Assembly (NCBI RefSeq): GCF_014279875.1
Contig: NZ_CP047952.1
Location: forward strand, 372,001 to 436,000
DNA: 64,000 nucleotides
Direction of reading: 5' to 3'
DNA from: Synechococcus sp. MEDNS5
GTDB taxonomy: Bacteria > Cyanobacteriota > Cyanobacteriia > PCC-6307 > Cyanobiaceae
In this document: piece by piece, positions 17,856 through 27,006 of the stretch
Layout of the letters: every line of letters begins with the position of its first letter
Position numbering within the stretch: the stretch's first letter is position 1
The notes under the pieces: generated by a model
Seen by the model: only the letters and a program-made list of their open reading frames with translations
What the model was told of the DNA's origin: nothing
The model's database searches: none
Translations under genes and position numbers: made by a program

Positions 17856-18359
17856 TCAGAGCAGGTCAGGCAGCGCTCCCGGTGGATGCTGAGCCGCGGG
17901 TCGCGATCTCAGCATCTCGAAATCTTCGAACTGAAATCCTGGGCCAACGCAGCAGCTCACCAGGCTGTACTGCCCTTCCGTGCGGGCTGCCTGCCAGTGA
18001 CCCGCCGGAACCGCGTGCAGAGGCTGGTGAAGCGACAGAACGTGTTGAAGGGCTTTGCTGCCATCCGGCGCCAGCGTCCAGAGGCTCAGGGGTGATCCCT
18101 GCAGATGGATCCAGATTTCGTCGGCATTGTGCACGGCATGCCAGCAACTTTTGGATTCGGCATCCAGGAGAAAGAGGATGGTGGTGATGCTGCTGCGTTG
18201 CGCACCGTCGCTGCGGGTGACCTGTTCCAGGCTGCGGTGCATTTCCCTGTACCAGCCGCCCTCGGGATGGGGGTGCAGATCCCAGTCTTTGATGAGCTGC
18301 TCCACCACTTCGCGGGGGGTGTGGTCGGAGGATTGCGTTTGCTTGTCAGGTGTGTCCAT
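17856..18359 (-). CDS. DUF985 (cupin_5) protein coupled to betaine synthesis genes
   Basis: About 167 residues, single cupin barrel of the DUF985 type. Typical blocks: LIKDWDLHPHPEGGWYREM, RSSITTILFLLDAESKSCWH, DEIWIHLQGSPLSLWTL, VPAGHWQAAR and LVSCCVGPGFQFEDFEML. Known relatives are small sugar- or metal-binding cupins with unsettled functions. The ATG at 18359 overlaps the stop of the dimethylglycine methyltransferase by one base (TGATG), so its translation is probably coupled to that gene. A longer frame starting at 18398 would overlap the methyltransferase and is not needed. The role in osmoadaptation is inference from position only. Confidence 0.8.
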   Translation of the reverse strand: MDTPDKQTQSSDHTPREVVEQLIKDWDLHPHPEGGWYREMHRSLEQVTRSDGAQRSSITTILFLLDAESKSCWHAVHNADEIWIHLQGSPLSLWTLAPDGSKALQHVLSLHQPLHAVPAGHWQAARTEGQYSLVSCCVGPGFQFEDFEMLRSRPAAQHPPGALPDLL

Positions 18360-19219
18360 CAGTGCAGGGGTTTGCTGAAGCGCATCAGGCCCCAACACAG
18401 TCGGCCGGCTTCACCCCCTTCCACCCAGTGGCCGAGGCCAGCATCCATGCGCTCGAGATAGTCGGCGCTAATCGTGCGGTTCAGAAGCTCACGGCGCTGC
18501 CTGAGCTCTTCACGTACGCGGCTGTAGTGCCTGATCAGCATGGGAGTCCGATCGTCCCAGTGCGTTCGTTCAAGCCCAGCTGCGTCGCCCCAGTTTTTGT
18601 ACCGCTCCGGGGAGCCAAGGTCTTGCAGGTGGATCCGCTTCAGGATTGCCGAGAGCGACTCTGCGGGAACGCCATCGGCGGCCATGGGATCGGTCATCAC
18701 CATCACTCCGCCAGGTTTCAGCAGGCGCGACGCCTCATGCATCACGGTCTGACGGTTGCCGGAGTGCAGGATTGCATCCTGGCTCCAGATCACATCGGCA
18801 CAGCCATCCGCCAGAGGAACCGATTCGAAGGAGGCGTTGTGAACGGTGATTTTCTGGTCGACACCGGCCTCGCGGTTGAGAAGTCGATGACGATCATTCT
18901 CAACGGCGGAAATATTGATGGCTTCGATCCGCACGTTGGGGTGTTGGCAGAGACGGCGAGCGGCGCCCCCGTAGCCGGAGCCGAAATCCACCACAAGGCG
19001 CTCAGCTTCACCATCGCTCAGACCATCGCGGCCAATCAGGTCGATCAGGGTGTCGACCGTGCGCCGACTGGCAGTAGCGATCGCTTCATCGGCATCGGCG
19101 TAGAGACCGATGTGGATGTCCTCGCCTCCCCAGATGTCGGCATAGAAGTGATCGGCATCGGCGCTGTCGTAGTAACTGGCAGCCGTGGCCGCGGCATCGG
19201 AGTAGGGGTTTTGCGTCAT
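18359..19219 (-). CDS. Sarcosine/dimethylglycine N-methyltransferase (glycine betaine synthesis)
   Basis: SAM-dependent methyltransferase that carries out the last methylations to glycine betaine (sarcosine to dimethylglycine to betaine). 286 residues. The N-terminus ATAASYYDSADADHFYADIW and GGEDIHIGLY are hallmarks of the SDMT family; the SAM motif is VVDFGSGYGGAARRL, followed by AINISAVEND and the SQDAILHSGNR segment, with MVMTDPMAAD as motif post-I. It lies five bases after the glycine/sarcosine methyltransferase and overlaps the DUF985 cupin, so these three form an operon. Confidence 0.9.
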   Translation of the reverse strand: MTQNPYSDAAATAASYYDSADADHFYADIWGGEDIHIGLYADADEAIATASRRTVDTLIDLIGRDGLSDGEAERLVVDFGSGYGGAARRLCQHPNVRIEAINISAVENDRHRLLNREAGVDQKITVHNASFESVPLADGCADVIWSQDAILHSGNRQTVMHEASRLLKPGGVMVMTDPMAADGVPAESLSAILKRIHLQDLGSPERYKNWGDAAGLERTHWDDRTPMLIRHYSRVREELRQRRELLNRTISADYLERMDAGLGHWVEGGEAGRLCWGLMRFSKPLH

Positions 19220-19224
19220 GGGGT

Positions 19225-20067
19225 TTAGATGGCGGTCATATCGGTGTTGAAGAGGTATTCCTTTTCCGCAACGTGCACGTAGAAATCAGGATCGTCGTGG
19301 CCACGTTGGTAGTCGCCATAGGTGGTGATGCGTTGGAAGCCCACCTCGCGCATCAGCCTTCTCACGTAGCCATGACGCAGAGGGAACATGTTGAGGTGGT
19401 ACGTGCTCCCATCGCTGAAGGCGTAGCGGAAGCGCGCGAGTCCGTCATCCACATGCTCAGGACCAACCTCCACATCCTTGCCGCAATACACGTTGCTCTT
19501 GCCACTGGTTGAAGTTCCTTCCAGCAGCCTGTCGTAGTTCCGATGGTCGAGAATCAGGATGCCGTTGTGCTTGAGAACGGCGTAGTACTCCGCCAGGGCT
19601 TTGCGCCGATCCCTCTCCCGGAACAGATGGGTGAACGAGTTGCCCAGGCAGATCACGGCGTCGTATTCGCCGTGGATGTCGCGGTTCAGGAAACGCCAGT
19701 CGGCGTGAACCGTTCGCATCAGCAGGTCTCGACTCCGAGCATTCTTGAAGGCCCGGGCCAGCATGTTCGGGCTCCCATCCACGCTCACCACCTCGAAGCC
19801 TTCGCGCAGCAGGCGCACGGAATGAAACCCGGTTCCCGTGGCCACATCCAGCACAGACTTGGCCCCATGCTCCCGCAGCAGTTTCACGAAGAAATCCCCT
19901 TCGGCTTCCTCCCGTGCTTGCCAATCGATAAGGCGATCCCAGCGGTCAGCGAACTGCTCGATGTACTCCTGCTGGTAGTGGTCCGTTTCCCTCACGCTTT
20001 CGGGGGTCTCGCCGAACCGCTGAGCATCACCGGACTCCGCTGAAGGGTGGCTCTTGGTTGAGGTCAT
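19225..20067 (-). CDS. Glycine/sarcosine N-methyltransferase (glycine betaine synthesis)
   Basis: First enzyme of de novo betaine synthesis by stepwise methylation of glycine. About 280 residues. SAM motif SVLDVATGTGFHSVRLLREG; VVSVDGSPNMLARAF, DAVICLGNSFTHLF and GILILDHRNYDRLL are characteristic of GSMT. ATG 20067 (MTSTKSHPSAES) is chosen; the upstream extension to 20133 is Cys/Ile-rich and atypical. It heads the minus-strand GSMT-SDMT-DUF985 operon and is divergent from the betaine transporter, so synthesis and uptake share a 293-base control region. Confidence 0.92.
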   Translation of the reverse strand: MTSTKSHPSAESGDAQRFGETPESVRETDHYQQEYIEQFADRWDRLIDWQAREEAEGDFFVKLLREHGAKSVLDVATGTGFHSVRLLREGFEVVSVDGSPNMLARAFKNARSRDLLMRTVHADWRFLNRDIHGEYDAVICLGNSFTHLFRERDRRKALAEYYAVLKHNGILILDHRNYDRLLEGTSTSGKSNVYCGKDVEVGPEHVDDGLARFRYAFSDGSTYHLNMFPLRHGYVRRLMREVGFQRITTYGDYQRGHDDPDFYVHVAEKEYLFNTDMTAI

Positions 20068-20360
20068 GCCGAATTCGCTCTTGAATGCACTGGAGATGGC
20101 AGCGATGCCGCAGATGCTTTGACTGCAGTGCACGCAACACCATTGATGTGAACGATGAACAATATTCTCGCTCCATCTGCAAGCTAACCATGAAGTGCAT
20201 GGTTGTCAGTGTTCTGGTGCAATCGGTCATTCAGAGATCATGCGCAAATTGGCGAAAAACAAAGGGGCACAGTCGGTTTCAGCAATGCAAAAGTGTGCGT
20301 ATTTGAGGCTTTTCTGCTGGGATCCTTCATGCCTCTGCCTGTTTTTGCTATAAGGCTCAA
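20068..20360. promoter_or_regulatory. Divergent control region between betaine synthesis and uptake operons
   Basis: 293 bases without a convincing gene between the GSMT start (minus) and the proV start (plus). It is clearly more A/T-rich than its neighbours, fitting promoters for both directions. I see no certain -35/-10 pair, no terminator and no perfect long palindrome. A salt- or osmotically regulated pair of promoters is expected from the flanking functions (inference). Confidence 0.6.
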
Positions 20361-21518
20361 GTGGTGCTGGAGGCCTCTGAAGTGAAATCAGAGATCTCTA
20401 TACATTCTGTTTGGAAAATATTCGGTGGTTCTCCCTCCGACGTGATCCATCAATTGCGCAAGGGCGCAGATCCTGAGCAACTCCACCAGCAACTGGGTGC
20501 CAGGGCTGCTCTGCAAGATGTTTGTCTTGACATTCGGGAGGGCGAGATCTTCGTCGTGATGGGCCTGTCTGGCTCGGGGAAGTCCACATTGCTGCGACTG
20601 CTCAATGGGTTGATTCGACCGTCCGCTGGTGATGTTTTTGTGCAAGGGCGTTCGCTCGCTGGGTTAACGCCCTCCGAGCTGGCTGAAGTGCGCCGGCGTC
20701 AGATGGCCATGGTCTTCCAATCCTTTGCGCTGTTCCCCCATCGGAGCGTTCTCGACAACGCGGCTTTCGGCCTTGAGGTGGCCGGTGTTCCACGCAGAGT
20801 CCGGCAATCCCGAGCCATCGAGGCGCTGGAGCGGGTTGGCCTGGGACAGGAATTGCGCAAGCGACCCGCGCAACTCTCCGGAGGTATGCAACAGCGCGTG
20901 GGCCTGGCGCGAGCGTTGGCGCTCGATCCCCCGATCCTGCTGATGGATGAGGCATTTTCCGCCCTCGACCCTCTGATTCGCGTCGACATGCAAAATCTGC
21001 TGCTCGATCTCCAGGCGGAGCAGCGCCGCACGGTTGTTTTCATTACCCACGACCTTGATGAAGCCATTCGGATCGGTGACCGGATCGCTCTGATGCAAGG
21101 GGGGCGACTGCTCCAGTGCGATACGGCCCAGACCCTGCTGCATCAACCCGCCAGCGAGGAGGTTCGCCGTTTTTTCAGGGACGTGGATGTGGCATCGGTG
21201 CAGACCGTCGACCGTGTGGCAACGCCAACCAACCGTGAGCTGGTGCTTGAGCACGGCGCCCCCCGACCTGAGCGCTCTCAGAACACGCTGTACGTCGTCA
21301 ACTCCGAGCGTCGCTTCTTGGGGATAGTCACTGCGCAAAAGGGTTGGCTTGACGCTTCGGAAACCACCGTTTTGCAGTCGGGGACTCGCGTCAAGGACGC
21401 AATCCAATCGGTGGCTCTCTGCTCCGATCCAGTGCCGGTGCTGGACTCTGAGCAGCGATTGATCGGTGTGATCAGCGCCCAGCAACTGCTCAGATCGATG
21501 GAGGGATTTGGCTCATGA
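20361..21518 (+). CDS. proV: Glycine betaine/proline-type ABC transporter ATPase
   Basis: ATP-binding subunit of a QAT-family osmoprotectant importer. 385 residues with an N-terminal extension typical of ProV (VWKIFGGSPSDVIHQLRKG), Walker A GLSGSGKSTLLR near residue 70, Q-loop VFQSFALFPHRSV, signature LSGGMQQRVGLARAL, Walker B ILLMDEAFSALD, switch His in FITHDLDEA, and two C-terminal CBS-like segments that in relatives sense ionic strength. The start is GTG 20361 (GTG 20364 is adjacent). Its stop overlaps the proW ATG by four bases. Confidence 0.93.
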   Translation: MVLEASEVKSEISIHSVWKIFGGSPSDVIHQLRKGADPEQLHQQLGARAALQDVCLDIREGEIFVVMGLSGSGKSTLLRLLNGLIRPSAGDVFVQGRSLAGLTPSELAEVRRRQMAMVFQSFALFPHRSVLDNAAFGLEVAGVPRRVRQSRAIEALERVGLGQELRKRPAQLSGGMQQRVGLARALALDPPILLMDEAFSALDPLIRVDMQNLLLDLQAEQRRTVVFITHDLDEAIRIGDRIALMQGGRLLQCDTAQTLLHQPASEEVRRFFRDVDVASVQTVDRVATPTNRELVLEHGAPRPERSQNTLYVVNSERRFLGIVTAQKGWLDASETTVLQSGTRVKDAIQSVALCSDPVPVLDSEQRLIGVISAQQLLRSMEGFGS

Positions 21519-22411
21519 CTCTCCTTGCAGCGGCACACCAGGCCGGTTGGCTCGGACAAAGCGTCGATGTCATCGTTGCCTGGCTGCTCGCCAATGCGCA
21601 GGGCGCTTTTGATGTGATCAAGGTCTCGGTCCTCGCCGTGGTCTCCTTCACCGAGATGCTTCTGGAAAGTCCTCCGGCCTGGTTGCTCGCCTGGGGTGTG
21701 GCCGCGATCGGCCTATGGAGAGTGAGTGGAGGCTTCGCTCTCTTCGTGCTTCTCGGCCTCAACCTTGTGCTCTCCCTCCAGCTCTGGAATGAGATGATCG
21801 CCACCCTGGCTCTGGTGATCACGGCCTCGCTGTTGGCTCTCGTGATCGGGTTGCCCCTGGGTATCCTCTCGGCCCGATACCGCTCGGTTTGGCGTCTGGT
21901 GAGGCCCTGTCTCGACTTGATGCAGACCATGCCGGCATTCGTTTATCTGATTCCTGCTGTGATGCTGTTCAGCACGGGTGCGGTGCCTTCGATCCTGGCC
22001 ACCCTGATCTTTTCCATGCCTCCTGTCGTCCGATTGACGCAGCTCGGATTGTCCCAGGTGCCTGCTGATCTGATCGAAGCAGGACGCTCCTTCGGATGCA
22101 GTGAACGCCAGCTTCTCTGGAAAGTTCAGATGCCGAGTGCTCTGCCAACGGTGATGACGGGCGTTAATCAAACGATCATGCTGGCTCTGTCCATGGTCGT
22201 TATCGCCTCCATGATTGGCGGAGGCGGATTAGGCGATGTGGTGTTGCGTGGCATTCAGCAGCTCGACGTGGGTCTGGGTTTCGAGGGTGGAATCGCTGTT
22301 GTGATCCTTGCCGTGATCCTCGACCGTCTCAGTCAGAGCTTCACAGCCCGCGAAGTGCAACCCCTTCGTCAGCGCTGGCGCACGTGGATGTCTCCCTGGA
22401 GGTCGTCATGA
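21515..22411 (+). CDS. proW: Glycine betaine/proline-type ABC transporter permease
   Basis: Inner-membrane permease partner of ProV. 298 residues, about seven hydrophobic spans. The cytoplasmic EAA loop that contacts the ATPase is visible as LIEAGRSFGCSERQLLWKVQMPSALPT-type sequence (short form: EAGRSFGCS). The conserved LGLPLGI-like block occurs as VIGLPLGILSARYRS, and MTGVNQTIMLALSMVVIASM is typical. ATGA overlaps join it to both neighbours (21515-21518 and 22408-22411). Confidence 0.93.
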   Translation: MTLLAAAHQAGWLGQSVDVIVAWLLANAQGAFDVIKVSVLAVVSFTEMLLESPPAWLLAWGVAAIGLWRVSGGFALFVLLGLNLVLSLQLWNEMIATLALVITASLLALVIGLPLGILSARYRSVWRLVRPCLDLMQTMPAFVYLIPAVMLFSTGAVPSILATLIFSMPPVVRLTQLGLSQVPADLIEAGRSFGCSERQLLWKVQMPSALPTVMTGVNQTIMLALSMVVIASMIGGGGLGDVVLRGIQQLDVGLGFEGGIAVVILAVILDRLSQSFTAREVQPLRQRWRTWMSPWRSS

Positions 22412-23376
22412 GTGATCACAACCGCATCCGTCGACGCGCTGTGTTGCTCGGAGGCCTGGGGCTTGCGGGGGCTTCGATGGCCAGCTTGGTGAATCTCAGT
22501 CAACCTTCGGTTCGGAAGTCCCAGGTCGCAGGTGCGGAGACTGGAGGTGCACCGCAGCCCATCTCGGCATCGTCAGGATTTACCCTGCGACTGGGCTGGT
22601 CTCCCTGGGCTGATGCCGAGGTCATCAGCCTGATCGCTCAGAAAGTGATTCAGCAGGCTTACAACATCGAGGTGGAGAGAGTTCTCGCCGACATCGGCAT
22701 TCAATACGCCTCAGTTGCTCGCGGCGATCTCGACATGATGCTCATGGCCTGGTTGCCGCTGACCCATCGTGACTACTGGCGACGGGTACGCGACCGCGTG
22801 CTCGATTTCGGGTCCATGTATTCCGGCCGTCTGGGCTGGGTGGTTCCCGACTACATCCCGAAGGCTGAGCTCTCATCGATCCAGCAGTTGCGGAACCCTG
22901 CCCTGGCCGCTCGTTTTGAGAACCGTGTTCAGGGGATCGATCCCGGTTCAGGCCTGAATCAGGCGTCTGCAGAGGCGCTCAAGAGCTACCAACTCAATGA
23001 CCTGGACTTGGTGGCGTCGAGCAGTGCGGCGATGACGGCGGTGCTTGACCAGGCCATTCGCAGGCAGCAGTGGGTGATCGTGACCAGCTGGATGCCGCAT
23101 TGGATGTTCGCCCGCTACAAGTTGCGTTTTCTCGAAGACCCGAAGCGTGTGTTTGGGGGCATTGAGTGGATTCACGCGCTGGGTCGGCCGAGTCTTGATC
23201 TTGATGCTCCCGATGTCGCCGACTTCTTGACCCGTTTCCATCTCCCGGATCAGGAGATGTCGGACCTGCTGCTCAAGGCCAATGATCGATCAGCTGAGAT
23301 TGCTGTGGATGAGTACCTCGACACCCATCCCGCACGCGTTCGCTACTGGACCACCGGCCAGATCGCCGCTGGGTGA
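22408..23376 (+). CDS. proX: Glycine betaine-type substrate-binding protein (Tat signal)
   Basis: Periplasmic ligand-binding subunit of the transporter. About 322 residues. The N-terminus MSDHNRIRRRAVLLGGLGLA is a twin-arginine-type signal followed by a hydrophobic core. The mature part has the OpuAC/ProX-like pattern: LGWSPWADAEVISLIAQKV, DLDMMLMAWLPLTH, DPGSGLNQASAEALKSYQLND, and WVIVTSWMPHWMFARY with Trp residues suited to a cation-pi betaine pocket. ATG 22408 overlaps the proW stop (ATGA); a GTG at 22384 is less likely. It ends three bases before the convergent YHS-permease stop. Confidence 0.9.
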   Translation: MSDHNRIRRRAVLLGGLGLAGASMASLVNLSQPSVRKSQVAGAETGGAPQPISASSGFTLRLGWSPWADAEVISLIAQKVIQQAYNIEVERVLADIGIQYASVARGDLDMMLMAWLPLTHRDYWRRVRDRVLDFGSMYSGRLGWVVPDYIPKAELSSIQQLRNPALAARFENRVQGIDPGSGLNQASAEALKSYQLNDLDLVASSSAAMTAVLDQAIRRQQWVIVTSWMPHWMFARYKLRFLEDPKRVFGGIEWIHALGRPSLDLDAPDVADFLTRFHLPDQEMSDLLLKANDRSAEIAVDEYLDTHPARVRYWTTGQIAAG

Positions 23377-23379
23377 TCA

Positions 23380-24825
23380 TCAGTCGCGGTGATCAAAGGC
23401 TTCTGCGCAGCGGGTGCTGCAGAACCAGACGTTGGTGTCCCCTTGCTTTCGATGGGGTGTGCTGGCAGTGATGGAAACCGTCATTCCGCAGATGGGATCC
23501 TTCGCCTGTGCCTTGCCAAGCACGTTGGCTTCAAGAGATGGCGAAAGGTTTGCCTGAACAAGTGATGTCGAGGGGGTGCCACCGCTTTGGTCGAAGTGTT
23601 CGGCGCAGTGGTCGGAACAGAACCAGAAGCGCTTTCCGGCCCGTTCGCGCGTGGCGGGAGCATTCACCTTCTCAACTTGCATGCCGCACACTGGATCGAC
23701 TGCGTATCCGGAACCCCCTCCAAATCGTTCCTTGTGGCGGGCCATCCACCAGGCCGAAAGCAGTCCGGCAAGGGCAACGAGATTGAGCCATGTGGTGCTG
23801 TTCCATCCCATGGCCAGGCTCTGCCCAGCGTGCGTTCGGACGCTGGGAATCCATCCAGCGGCATGGAAGAGACCTTCCACGATCAATCCGCTAATTGACA
23901 TCAGCAGCCACAGGCTGACCATCAGCCGCAAGGCCAGTTTGGGGCCGTAGTACTTCCGATAGATCAGCAACAGCGGCAGGGTGATCAGGTCACCGAAGAT
24001 GAATGCAATTACGCCTCCAAAGGAGACACCACCAGTCCAAAGGGCAGCGGCCATTGCCACATTGCCCACGGAGCAGACGAAGCTGATCACGGCAATCAAA
24101 GGTCCTATGAAGGCGTTCTGGATCGAGGTCCAGATCCCTTGGTTCTGAAGAAACACCACCCTCCAGACCGCATCGGGAATCACGGTGGTCAGCAATCCCG
24201 CCACGACGAAGCCGATCAACAGCTCTTTGCGCAACATCGTGATGTCCGCCAGGGTGTATCCAGCTGCATTGGCCCAGGTCGCTGGAGTGCTCAGCTTTCT
24301 GCGGAGACCCTCCATTCCCGGTGCAGTCTCACTTGCTTTGTCGGCTGTTGAACCTTCCTGTAGACGTGCCTGTGCTGGTTGGGTAAGGCGTTTGGGAAAA
24401 AGCCGTGCCCCCCACCAAGCCAGGAGAACAATCATGATCGGTCCCCCAATGAACTCAGCTGCTGCAAATGGCCAGCCCAGCAGCACGATCAGTACCAAGC
24501 CAATCTCAATGACCAGATTGGTGGAGGCCAGCATGAAGACCTGTGCGGTGATGAAGTCAGCACCCTTGGCAAAGAGGTTCTTGCTCATTGCCGAGGCTGC
24601 ATACGAGCAGGACGATGACAACATCCCCAAGGCCGATGCCCTCACGACAGCTCCAGGCCGGTGGGATCCCATGACGCGTTCCATCCCCGAACGACTGGCA
24701 CAGGCCTGGACGACTCCGGAGATCCCAAAGCCAAGGGCAAGCGGCCAGAGCGTTGCCCAGAACATCAGCCACCCGGTCCAGAGTCCCTCGGCTATCAGCA
24801 GCGGAAGCTCCAGCTGAGCATTCAT
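23380..24825 (-). CDS. DUF318/ArsP-like permease with two C-terminal YHS domains
   Basis: 481 residues. The N-terminal 350 form a permease with eight or so spans and the motif MLSSSCSYAASAM, the Cys-containing signature of the permease/ArsP (DUF318) family; some members export trivalent organoarsenicals. The C-terminus carries two YHS-type metal-binding domains: DPVCGMQVEKV with FWFCSDHCAEHFD, and DPICGMTVSIT with VWFCSTRCAEAFD. Such a double-YHS tail on this permease suggests metal sensing or handling. It follows the symporter-family gene by 75 bases on the same strand, so the two may be co-transcribed. Substrate is unknown. Confidence 0.82.
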   Translation of the reverse strand: MNAQLELPLLIAEGLWTGWLMFWATLWPLALGFGISGVVQACASRSGMERVMGSHRPGAVVRASALGMLSSSCSYAASAMSKNLFAKGADFITAQVFMLASTNLVIEIGLVLIVLLGWPFAAAEFIGGPIMIVLLAWWGARLFPKRLTQPAQARLQEGSTADKASETAPGMEGLRRKLSTPATWANAAGYTLADITMLRKELLIGFVVAGLLTTVIPDAVWRVVFLQNQGIWTSIQNAFIGPLIAVISFVCSVGNVAMAAALWTGGVSFGGVIAFIFGDLITLPLLLIYRKYYGPKLALRLMVSLWLLMSISGLIVEGLFHAAGWIPSVRTHAGQSLAMGWNSTTWLNLVALAGLLSAWWMARHKERFGGGSGYAVDPVCGMQVEKVNAPATRERAGKRFWFCSDHCAEHFDQSGGTPSTSLVQANLSPSLEANVLGKAQAKDPICGMTVSITASTPHRKQGDTNVWFCSTRCAEAFDHRD

Positions 24826-24900
24826 TGGTGATGAAGTGATTCACCCACTTCATAGACAGGAATGGAAAGTTTTCCTACGTCGTTTGATTTACTTTTGGGA

Positions 24901-25794
24901 TCAGCAGTTGATCTCAGCTTGAGGTGAAGCTGCGAGCGAAGGGAGGCTTCGTCTCCAGGCAATGAACGGAATGATGGTGACTGTCATCAGCACGCCGTAA
25001 ACAGCAGACGGAAGGCTGAAGCTGTTGAGCTGGCTTTGCATCAGGTCTGGCCCGAGCAACGATCCCACGACGATGCCCACGGTGCCGTTTTGAAATCCCG
25101 CTTCGATGGACAAGCTGGTGGTCTGTTCTGTTGGCATCGTCAGAAGATTGCCGAGGCTCAGTCCGATGGCCAGCATCAGCAGATTCAGCGCCAGAAGGGT
25201 TGGACCAATCGTCTTCAGGTTGCTCGTAAACACGGACCATTGGCTGATCAGGGTTCCGGCCACGATCAGCACAAACAACAGATTGGCGAGTTGTTCCGCC
25301 TTTTGTCTGTTGCGTTTGCAGAAGCCAGGTGCCTGCTGAGCGATCCATACCCCGATCATCACCGGCACGGTGGAGATGGAAAACACCTTGAGACTGAGAG
25401 GGAGGATGGATAGCTCGAGGGTTTGGCTCGGAAGCAACAACGGTGCTGTGAGGCTGAGAACCACCGGCAAGGTGAATGCTGTCACCAGGCTTGCCAGCGC
25501 TGTGTAGGAGATCGATAGCGCCACGTCTCCGCGGGACAGTCTTGTCATCACATTGGAGGTGATTCCTCCCGGGCAGCAGCTCAGGATCATGACCCCCAAG
25601 GCAAGGTCGCCATTCAGTCCGAACAAGCGCAGAAGAGCGAAGGCCACGAGTGGCAGAAGAATGAGCTGAGCCACTGCTCCGCCCATGAGGGCGCGCGGCT
25701 GGCCAAGAGCCCTGCTGAAATCAGTCGGTTGGAGCGACAGGCCCAGGCTCAGCATGATCAAAGCCAGGCCGACGGACAGAACGAGTTCGATCAA
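24901..25794 (-). CDS. Bile acid:sodium symporter (BASS/SBF) family transporter
   Basis: About 297 residues with nine to ten hydrophobic segments. SBF-family blocks are LSLGLSLQPTDFSRAL, ILSCCPGGITSNVMTRLSRGDVALS (the GG and substrate-loop region) and SLSIEAGFQNGTVGIVVGS. Characterised relatives move bile acids, pyruvate or other organic anions with sodium; ACR3 arsenite exporters are a sister group but lack exactly this pattern. The start is uncertain: TTG 25794 (encoding LIELVLSVGLALIM) gives a family-like N-terminus, while the longer frame to 25893 runs into the psbA terminator. It precedes the YHS-permease in a probable operon. Confidence 0.78.
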   Translation of the reverse strand: MIELVLSVGLALIMLSLGLSLQPTDFSRALGQPRALMGGAVAQLILLPLVAFALLRLFGLNGDLALGVMILSCCPGGITSNVMTRLSRGDVALSISYTALASLVTAFTLPVVLSLTAPLLLPSQTLELSILPLSLKVFSISTVPVMIGVWIAQQAPGFCKRNRQKAEQLANLLFVLIVAGTLISQWSVFTSNLKTIGPTLLALNLLMLAIGLSLGNLLTMPTEQTTSLSIEAGFQNGTVGIVVGSLLGPDLMQSQLNSFSLPSAVYGVLMTVTIIPFIAWRRSLPSLAASPQAEINC

Positions 25795-25852
25795 GGTCGA
25801 TGGACGCGAAGCGTGAAAGGTGCAGCAGGCTAAACGCCGATGTTTAGGCGCA

Positions 25853-25886
25853 ACAAAAAGCCCCCACTTTGAGGTGAGGGCTTTCC
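25853..25886 (-). terminator. Rho-independent terminator of psbA
   Basis: On the minus strand AAAGCCCTCAC, loop CTCAAA, GTGGGGGCTTTTT: an 11-bp stem with one G-U pair, followed by a T run, about 40 bases after the psbA stop. Confidence 0.9.
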
Positions 25887-25926
25887 GATTCAACTGACGC
25901 TGAATCTTTTGGTAGAGACTTCAGCC

Positions 25927-27006
25927 TCAGCCGATGGCGGGTGCTTGCAGAGCCACAGGAGTGGACTCAGCAGCTGCCAGGTCGAGGGGGAAGTTGTGAG
26001 CGTTGCGCTCGTGCATCACTTCCATGCCGAGGTTGGCGCGGTTCAGCACATCAGCCCAGGTGTTCAGGACGCGGCCCTGACCATCAAGGATGGACTGGTT
26101 GAAGTTGAAACCGTTCAGGTTGAAAGCCATGGTGCTGACGCCCAGGGCAGTGAACCAGATGCCGACCACAGGCCAGGCAGCCAGGAAGAAGTGAAGGCTG
26201 CGGCTGTTATTGAAGGAGGCGTATTGGAAGATCAGGCGACCGAAGTAACCGTGGGCAGCCACGATGTTGTAGGTCTCTTCCTCTTGACCAAACTTGTAGC
26301 CGTAGTTCTGGGACTCGCTCTCGGTGGTTTCACGCACCAGGGAGGAGGTCACCAGGGAGCCGTGCATGGCGGAGAACAGGGAGCCACCGAACACACCTGC
26401 GACGCCCATCATGTGGAAGGGGTGCATCAGGATGTTGTGCTCTGCCTGGAACACCAGCATGAAGTTGAAGGTGCCGGAGATGCCCAGGGGCATGCCGTCA
26501 GAGAAGGAACCCTGACCGAAGGGGTACACCAGGAACACGGCGGAGGCAGCAGCCACAGGTGCGCTGTAAGCAACGCAGATCCAGGGGCGCATGCCGAGGC
26601 GGTAGGAAAGTTCCCACTCGCGGCCCATGTAGCAGAAGATGCCGATCAGGAAGTGGAAGACAACCAGCTGGTAAGGACCGCCGTTGTACAGCCACTCGTC
26701 GAGGGAGGCAGCTTCCCAGATGGGATAGAAGTGAAGGCCGATGGCGTTCGAGGAAGGCACAACAGCACCGGAGATGATGTTGTTGCCATAGATCAGGGAG
26801 CCGGCGACGGGCTCACGGATGCCGTCGATGTCGACGGGGGGCGCTGCGATGAAAGCAACGATGAAGCAGGTGGTGGCAGCCAGCAGGGTGGGGATCATCA
26901 GCACACCGAACCAGCCCACATACAGGCGGTTGTTGGTGGAGGTGACCCACTCGCAGAAGGACTGCCAGCCATTGGCGCCGGAGCGCTGCTGAATGGTGGT
27001 GGTCAT
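25927..27006 (-). CDS. psbA: Photosystem II D1 protein, Glu130 (D1:2, high-light) form
   Basis: Reaction-centre subunit binding P680, pheophytin, QB and the Mn cluster. 359 residues, five transmembrane spans, and a C-terminal extension after LDLA (Ala344) that is removed during maturation. Residue 130 is Glu ([14 protein letters not shown]), the state that in cyanobacteria marks the D1:2 high-light form, in contrast to Gln130 in D1:1. Antisense frames here are shadows. It is divergent from a radical-SAM gene by 174 bases and followed by a clear terminator. Other psbA copies must exist elsewhere, as in all marine Synechococcus (established), but are not in this window. Confidence 0.98.

Follow-up and report, generated by a model that had tools for sequence, protein, structure and literature searches.

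A YHS-tailed ArsP_1-family permease of marine Synechococcus as a candidate soft-metal exporter, apparently independent of its SBF neighbour

The window (the whole stretch of 64,000 nucleotides of Synechococcus sp. MEDNS5 DNA that was analyzed) codes for an ArsP_1-family permease with two C-terminal YHS domains, which may serve as a stand-alone exporter of a soft metal, most likely Cu(I), with Ag(I), Zn or Cd as possible substrates. We assign this reading a probability of roughly 0.55. Its basis lies in the domain content and ligand residues of the protein, its orthologs, the lack of linkage to the adjacent SBF transporter gene and the copper or heavy-metal genes that surround many of its relatives; from these we infer the substrate, the direction of transport, the membrane side and the role of the tail.

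The permease gene opens with an ATG codon, and its product scores above the curated Pfam cut-offs both for ArsP_1 (PF03773; cut-off 32.3 bits, residues 21-317) and for YHS (PF04945; cut-off 30.3 bits, for the whole protein over two stretches). The main features are collected in Table 1. The signature SSSCSYAASA, pointed out in the initial annotation, is present with its Cys as residue 73, and the two extra C-terminal YHS domains described there, each with a CGM motif and a second Cys pair, are confirmed as well. Both copies read D-P-x-C-G-M ... C-x3-C and thereby carry the set of one Asp and three Cys residues that has been proposed as the copper ligands of YHS domains (PMC4626032). Cys73 is found in 30 of the 30 aligned permeases that cover the site, the window protein included (one of the 31 sequences is cut short there); a Cys in this first membrane motif is a trait of the sequences collected here and stands outside Pfam's definition of ArsP_1. 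Cys251, located in the motif FVCSVGN, is Cys in 16 of the 31 aligned sequences and Gly in 15. The permease is the sole PF04945 match in the whole window genome, a single contig of 2.44 Mb. Among solved structures, phmmer matched none with either the whole permease or the YHS tail as query, and the AlphaFold model (3 sequences) was poor, with a mean pLDDT of 56.4 and blocks of 57-75 in the first YHS domain and 79-83 in the second. The G+C content of the gene, 0.584 (0.672 at third positions), is close to that of its neighbours (0.574-0.603) and thus gives no sign of recent foreign DNA; the permease had no match in phage records and none in a pattern-limited scan of viral contigs.

Table 1. Positions in the window of the permease gene, its motifs and the adjacent transporter gene
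Feature	Position	Strand	Basis
ArsP_1-family permease gene with two C-terminal YHS domains, 481 aa	23380..24825	(-)	Pfam ArsP_1 189.2 bits, YHS 52.1 bits
First YHS copy, residues 377-413 (D377, C380, C403, C407)	23587..23697	(-)	Pfam and motif
Second YHS copy, residues 443-481 (D443, C446, C469, C473)	23383..23499	(-)	Motif
Codons Cys73-Ser74 of membrane motif SSSCSYAASA	24604..24609	(-)	Alignment
SBF (BASS-like) transporter gene; neighbour, judged to lie outside the permease system	24901..25794	(-)	Pfam SBF

The surroundings of the gene are as the initial annotation had them, with the permease and the SBF gene lying between betaine-type ABC genes and psbA (25927-27006, minus strand, named by eye), which is upstream of the SBF gene. 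The SBF homolog does end (at 24901) 75 bases upstream of the permease on the same strand; its product reaches 107 bits for Pfam SBF against a cut-off of 24.3 and 160.3 bits for NCBIfam TIGR00841 against a cut-off of 326.3, and the gene would begin with TTG if the start assigned to it earlier (about 25794) is right, the reading frame being open to 25893. The stop codon of the permease lies 3 bases from that of proX on the opposite strand, and further neighbours are betaine/choline-type ABC genes. The latter adjoin two methyltransferase genes. One codes for a glycine/sarcosine methyltransferase (NF051855, 444.5 bits against 350), and the other resembles a sarcosine/dimethylglycine methyltransferase (302.9 bits, under the cut-off of 550). 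The methyltransferase and ABC genes (18359-20133 and 20361-23376) probably form a cluster for making and taking up betaine. A scan for promoters and terminators gave 0 promoter-like sites (0.7 in shuffled sequences) and 3 terminator-like sites (2.5 in shuffled sequences); a terminator-like site at 25874-25862 fits the end of psbA.

This arrangement had led to the proposal that the SBF transporter and the permease form one metal or metalloid module. The shared strand, the 75-base gap and the lack of a promoter- or terminator-like site between the two genes speak in its favour, yet the distribution of the genes across genomes contradicts a conserved module, and we consider the proposal extremely improbable. 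Among 31 genomes of the genus, the permease is found in three, the window genome (G000), G008 and G028, while an SBF ortholog (at least 56% identity) is found in 17, with G020 and G027 counted from partial matches; ten of the remainder have more distant homologs only and four have no match. The two genes are found together in the window genome alone among these 31, i.e. in one of three permease genomes of the genus (Fisher p 0.58). When 400 sampled genomes of the family were searched, 29 showed some match at E 0.001, and four permease orthologs at 65% identity or more were recovered, those of the three genomes above and of G426, which belongs to another genus; the remaining hits either covered a short YHS portion of some other protein or aligned weakly with part of a permease. 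An SBF ortholog is present in none of G008, G028 and G426, and the pair is thus limited to one of four permease genomes in all. In the class, 22 of 388 sampled genomes had a match.

The gene orders argue in the same direction. In G022, G002 and G004, whose SBF and three ABC proteins share 88-99% identity with those of the window, the SBF gene directly follows proX at the same site and the permease is absent; when the DNA of G022 and G002 is aligned with the window, the difference lies right after the proX stop codon. The order is psbA, permease and proX in G008, a glycosidase-like gene (PF01229), permease and proX in G028, and psbA (PF00124), permease and a ZnuA/ABC/ABC-3 metal transporter in G426. 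No other genome among the neighbourhoods read has the SBF-permease pair. The two-gene module was therefore rejected, since SBF keeps its site without the permease and the permease orthologs occur without SBF; a strain-specific co-transcript of both genes is possible.

The slot downstream of psbA (window 25800-27006; L066, L106, L068-L073) differs in its contents among relatives, where it holds the SBF transporter, the permease, an unknown of 444 or 512 aa, or a metal ABC transporter; it may thus be a site of variable gene content in these organisms. In G028, the place upstream of the permease that psbA occupies in G008 is taken by the glycosidase-like gene (L067:259-2208), and a sequence resembling the psbA terminator of G008 is, by eye, still present. 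The genes in this slot vary, the SBF gene and the permease look like separate residents, and the SBF gene looks like an unrelated neighbour that occupies the variable slot independently.

The window permease is 71-72% identical to its ortholog in G008, 69-70% to that in G028 and 65-66% to that in G426. For the remaining genes that the G008 stretch has in common with the window, identity is 64-93% (one paralog match left out); the permease lies within this range and thus diverges like its neighbours. In a FastTree phylogeny of 31 permease domains, the four marine copies group together (support 0.993) and are joined by a permease from an actinobacterial metagenome-assembled genome (MAG), L036 (support 1.0), while the haloarchaeal copies branch elsewhere. 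An early gain followed by losses would account for this pattern, as would exchange between strains, two histories that four copies cannot separate.

The YHS domains, whose absence or degeneration in orthologs would have spoken against the module proposal, are retained: the motif reveals three copies each in G008, G028 and G426, and Pfam alone reveals two of the three in G008 and G028 and all three in G426. The motif search demands the ligand residues, so that ligand conservation in these copies is circular, and Pfam scans show no further copies. The first YHS domain of the window protein is 60-79% identical to the first of G008, G028 and G426, and its second shares 55-57% identity with the third of G008 and G028; in G426, identity between the second and third copies is 79%, which may reflect a separate duplication. 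Judged from sequence, the YHS tail is changeable within the marine lineage. A speculative extension, to which we give little weight, would have the tail act as an adjustable copper antenna, whereby the gain and loss of YHS domains would set both the catch of Cu(I) and the gating, near psbA and copper-sensitive photosynthesis; behind it stand the two copies in the window genome, the three in G008 and G028 and the three of partly separate make in G426.

More distant relatives provide the genomic context for a substrate. A tblastn search returned 149 plasmid records with a match, some of them only to the YHS parts of P-type ATPases. From these, 16 neighbourhoods were chosen by hand for variety and read, a set that is biased, as the query carried YHS. 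A neighbourhood was considered positive when a gene within 6 kb was named as a heavy-metal or copper P-type ATPase, an HMA protein, a multicopper or copper oxidase, a plastocyanin, or a copper, heavy-metal or metal-sensitive regulator, product names being tallied by eye. By this measure 12 of the 16 hold copper or heavy-metal genes, two of them weakly (L121 by one multicopper-oxidase-domain protein, L122 by one metal-sensitive regulator), and four are negative (L081, L116, L117 with CDF and ArsR/SmtB genes only, and L119). Seven of the 16 (L075, L077, L078, L079, L118, L120, L121) have a gene within 6 kb whose name includes copper, multicopper or plastocyanin; the multicopper oxidase and the copper ATPase of L123 are farther from the permease, at 6.0-9.6 kb. 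All seven YHS-bearing relatives are positive, four with copper-type names and three with heavy-metal names only within 6 kb, as are five of the nine plasmid relatives that lack YHS. Control stretches 47-59 kb away, on six plasmids picked after their permease neighbourhoods had proved positive, gave 0/6 by the same words, or 1/6 when one sulfocyanin, a blue copper protein, is counted (12/16 versus 1/6, Fisher p 0.023); the control stretch L136 also holds ArsR/SmtB- and MerR-type regulators. Among 19 aligned sequences without YHS, the last 60 residues contain 9-15 His in three and 6-7 His in five, as if the His-rich C-termini were putative metal-binding tails of another kind.

A scan of genome contigs yielded two relatives from 28 candidate stretches. 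The MAG relative L037 lies one ORF from a PF02583 metal-sensitive repressor, and among the freshwater cyanobacterial relatives L107 follows by 31 bases a DUF326 gene, which we take to encode a Cys-rich copper-binding motif, L108 has COX1/COX2 genes nearby, and for L110 an ABC-3 transporter gene is located at a distance of about 5 kb. In the other six of the nine freshwater neighbourhoods one or two ORFs each were annotated, and none of these is a metal gene.

The distribution of charge suggests how the protein may be oriented. The central loop has nine Lys and Arg residues and the loop 289-297 has three, the last helix is followed by the positive stretch RHKER, and the loops 221-242 and 317-343 have one positive charge each. 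By this count the YHS tail would lie inside, on the assumption that the segment around Cys251 is re-entrant. Cys73 and Cys251, in the two conserved motifs of the core, would line the metal path, and the two YHS domains would extend from the last membrane helix into the cytosol, each binding one metal ion via its putative Asp and three Cys ligands. They may hand the metal to the pore, or gate it when cytosolic copper rises. The ligand set, taken together with the charge-based topology, thus suggests that the tail captures metal in the cytosol and that the core exports it, a task that the permease would perform alone, without the SBF transporter. The YHS domain of the Mycobacterium phlei adenylyl cyclase is reported to be required for activation by Cu2+, and copper binding by the YHS/TRASH domains of copper ATPases is described as not shown as of 2015 (PMC4626032). 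A COG0701 permease of Haloferax, in which YHS is not known, rose by 3.49 log2 at the highest silver dose (PMC10694973).

Two considerations place copper ahead of zinc, cadmium and organoarsenicals, namely the neighbours of the relatives and the phenotype of Shewanella SO_0444, which is required under CuCl2 or ZnSO4 stress (PMC3219624). Several observations stand against copper: Gly replaces Cys251 in nearly half of the aligned sequences, the cut-off of the SO_0444 family model is missed by far, no copper gene was identified either beside the window permease or around any of its three orthologs, and the permease of G426 adjoins a ZnuA/ABC-3 metal transporter, as L110 lies near an ABC-3 gene. 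The neighbours in G426 and L110 would suit a permease that exports another metal (Zn, Cd) or serves Zn/Mn homeostasis, its YHS domains binding Zn or Cd. To this may be added the need for SO_0444 under zinc as well as copper (PMC3219624), the induction of a family member by Cd (PMC10092412), the binding of Cd by a TRASH-type L24e protein in a crystal (PMC4626032) and an Amnibacterium relative near CDF and ArsR/SmtB genes. We nevertheless hold a substrate of this kind to be unlikely, given the copper-named genes in seven of the 16 plasmid neighbourhoods, four of them among the seven with YHS, a comparison in which zinc- and cadmium-specific genes were tallied less strictly than copper ones.

Less probable still is that the protein acts as a genuine ArsP and carries trivalent organoarsenicals, methylarsenite for example, out of the cell. 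The permease belongs to the same Pfam family, ArsP of Campylobacter jejuni exports MAs(III) and trivalent roxarsone (PMC6205960), and an Arthrobacter plasmid carries a COG0701 permease with an ArsR regulator beside a copper module (PMC6305408). Yet an arsenic enzyme or arsenite pump is annotated in none of the 16 plasmid neighbourhoods, ArsR/SmtB-type regulators occur in two, the three methyltransferases tested from the surroundings of plasmid relatives fall below every ArsM cut-off, and a review divides arsP into two groups of probably different function. The initial idea of metal or metalloid handling is supported for a soft metal by the family, the ligand residues and the neighbourhoods of relatives, and the 16 plasmid neighbourhoods lend no support to a metalloid.

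The toxicity of copper is regarded as a factor in the distribution of marine picocyanobacteria. If the export of copper by this permease is true, a patchily kept exporter with two to three tail domains could mark copper tolerance among close strains. Permeases with zero, one, two and three YHS copies could also serve as a natural series for the role of YHS in transporters.

The description of the system as previously undescribed can be upheld in part. A Halovivax ruber permease, AGB15007.1, already appears among YHS/TRASH proteins (PMC4626032), while no report of a cyanobacterial YHS permease was found in the accessible literature, most subscription journals lying outside the search. Compared with known systems, the methylarsenite efflux permease ArsP shares the ArsP_1 family, and the window protein differs from it in its YHS tail and in the 16 neighbourhoods of relatives without an annotated arsenic enzyme. 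The model of the SO_0444 Cu/Zn efflux family (NF033936; 351 positions, covering the permease part only), whose namesake has the metal-stress phenotype in Shewanella, matches the permease region, yet at 44.1 bits against a cut-off of 300; the SaoE efflux transporter (NF040736) gives 52.3 bits against 325. The haloarchaeal YHS permeases (seven plasmid copies: L075, L076, L077, L082, L118, L121, L123) resemble the window protein in combining ArsP_1 with YHS (Pfam was run on L075 only), in a C-terminal YHS in six of seven and in copper or heavy-metal neighbours in all seven. They differ in being 33-36% identical to it and on separate tree branches, in having one YHS domain in the central loop in all seven (the only position of YHS in the Halomarina copy) and in Gly for Cys251 in six of the seven. 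Also related is the actinobacterial MAG permease L036 (CAILJM010000026.1), which is 49% identical, sister in the tree and equipped with a C-terminal YHS, yet in a single copy, and no ORF in its 13 kb matches the window SBF or proX. What is new is an apparently separate lineage, made up of marine Synechococcus and a single actinobacterial MAG, whose permeases bear one to three YHS copies.
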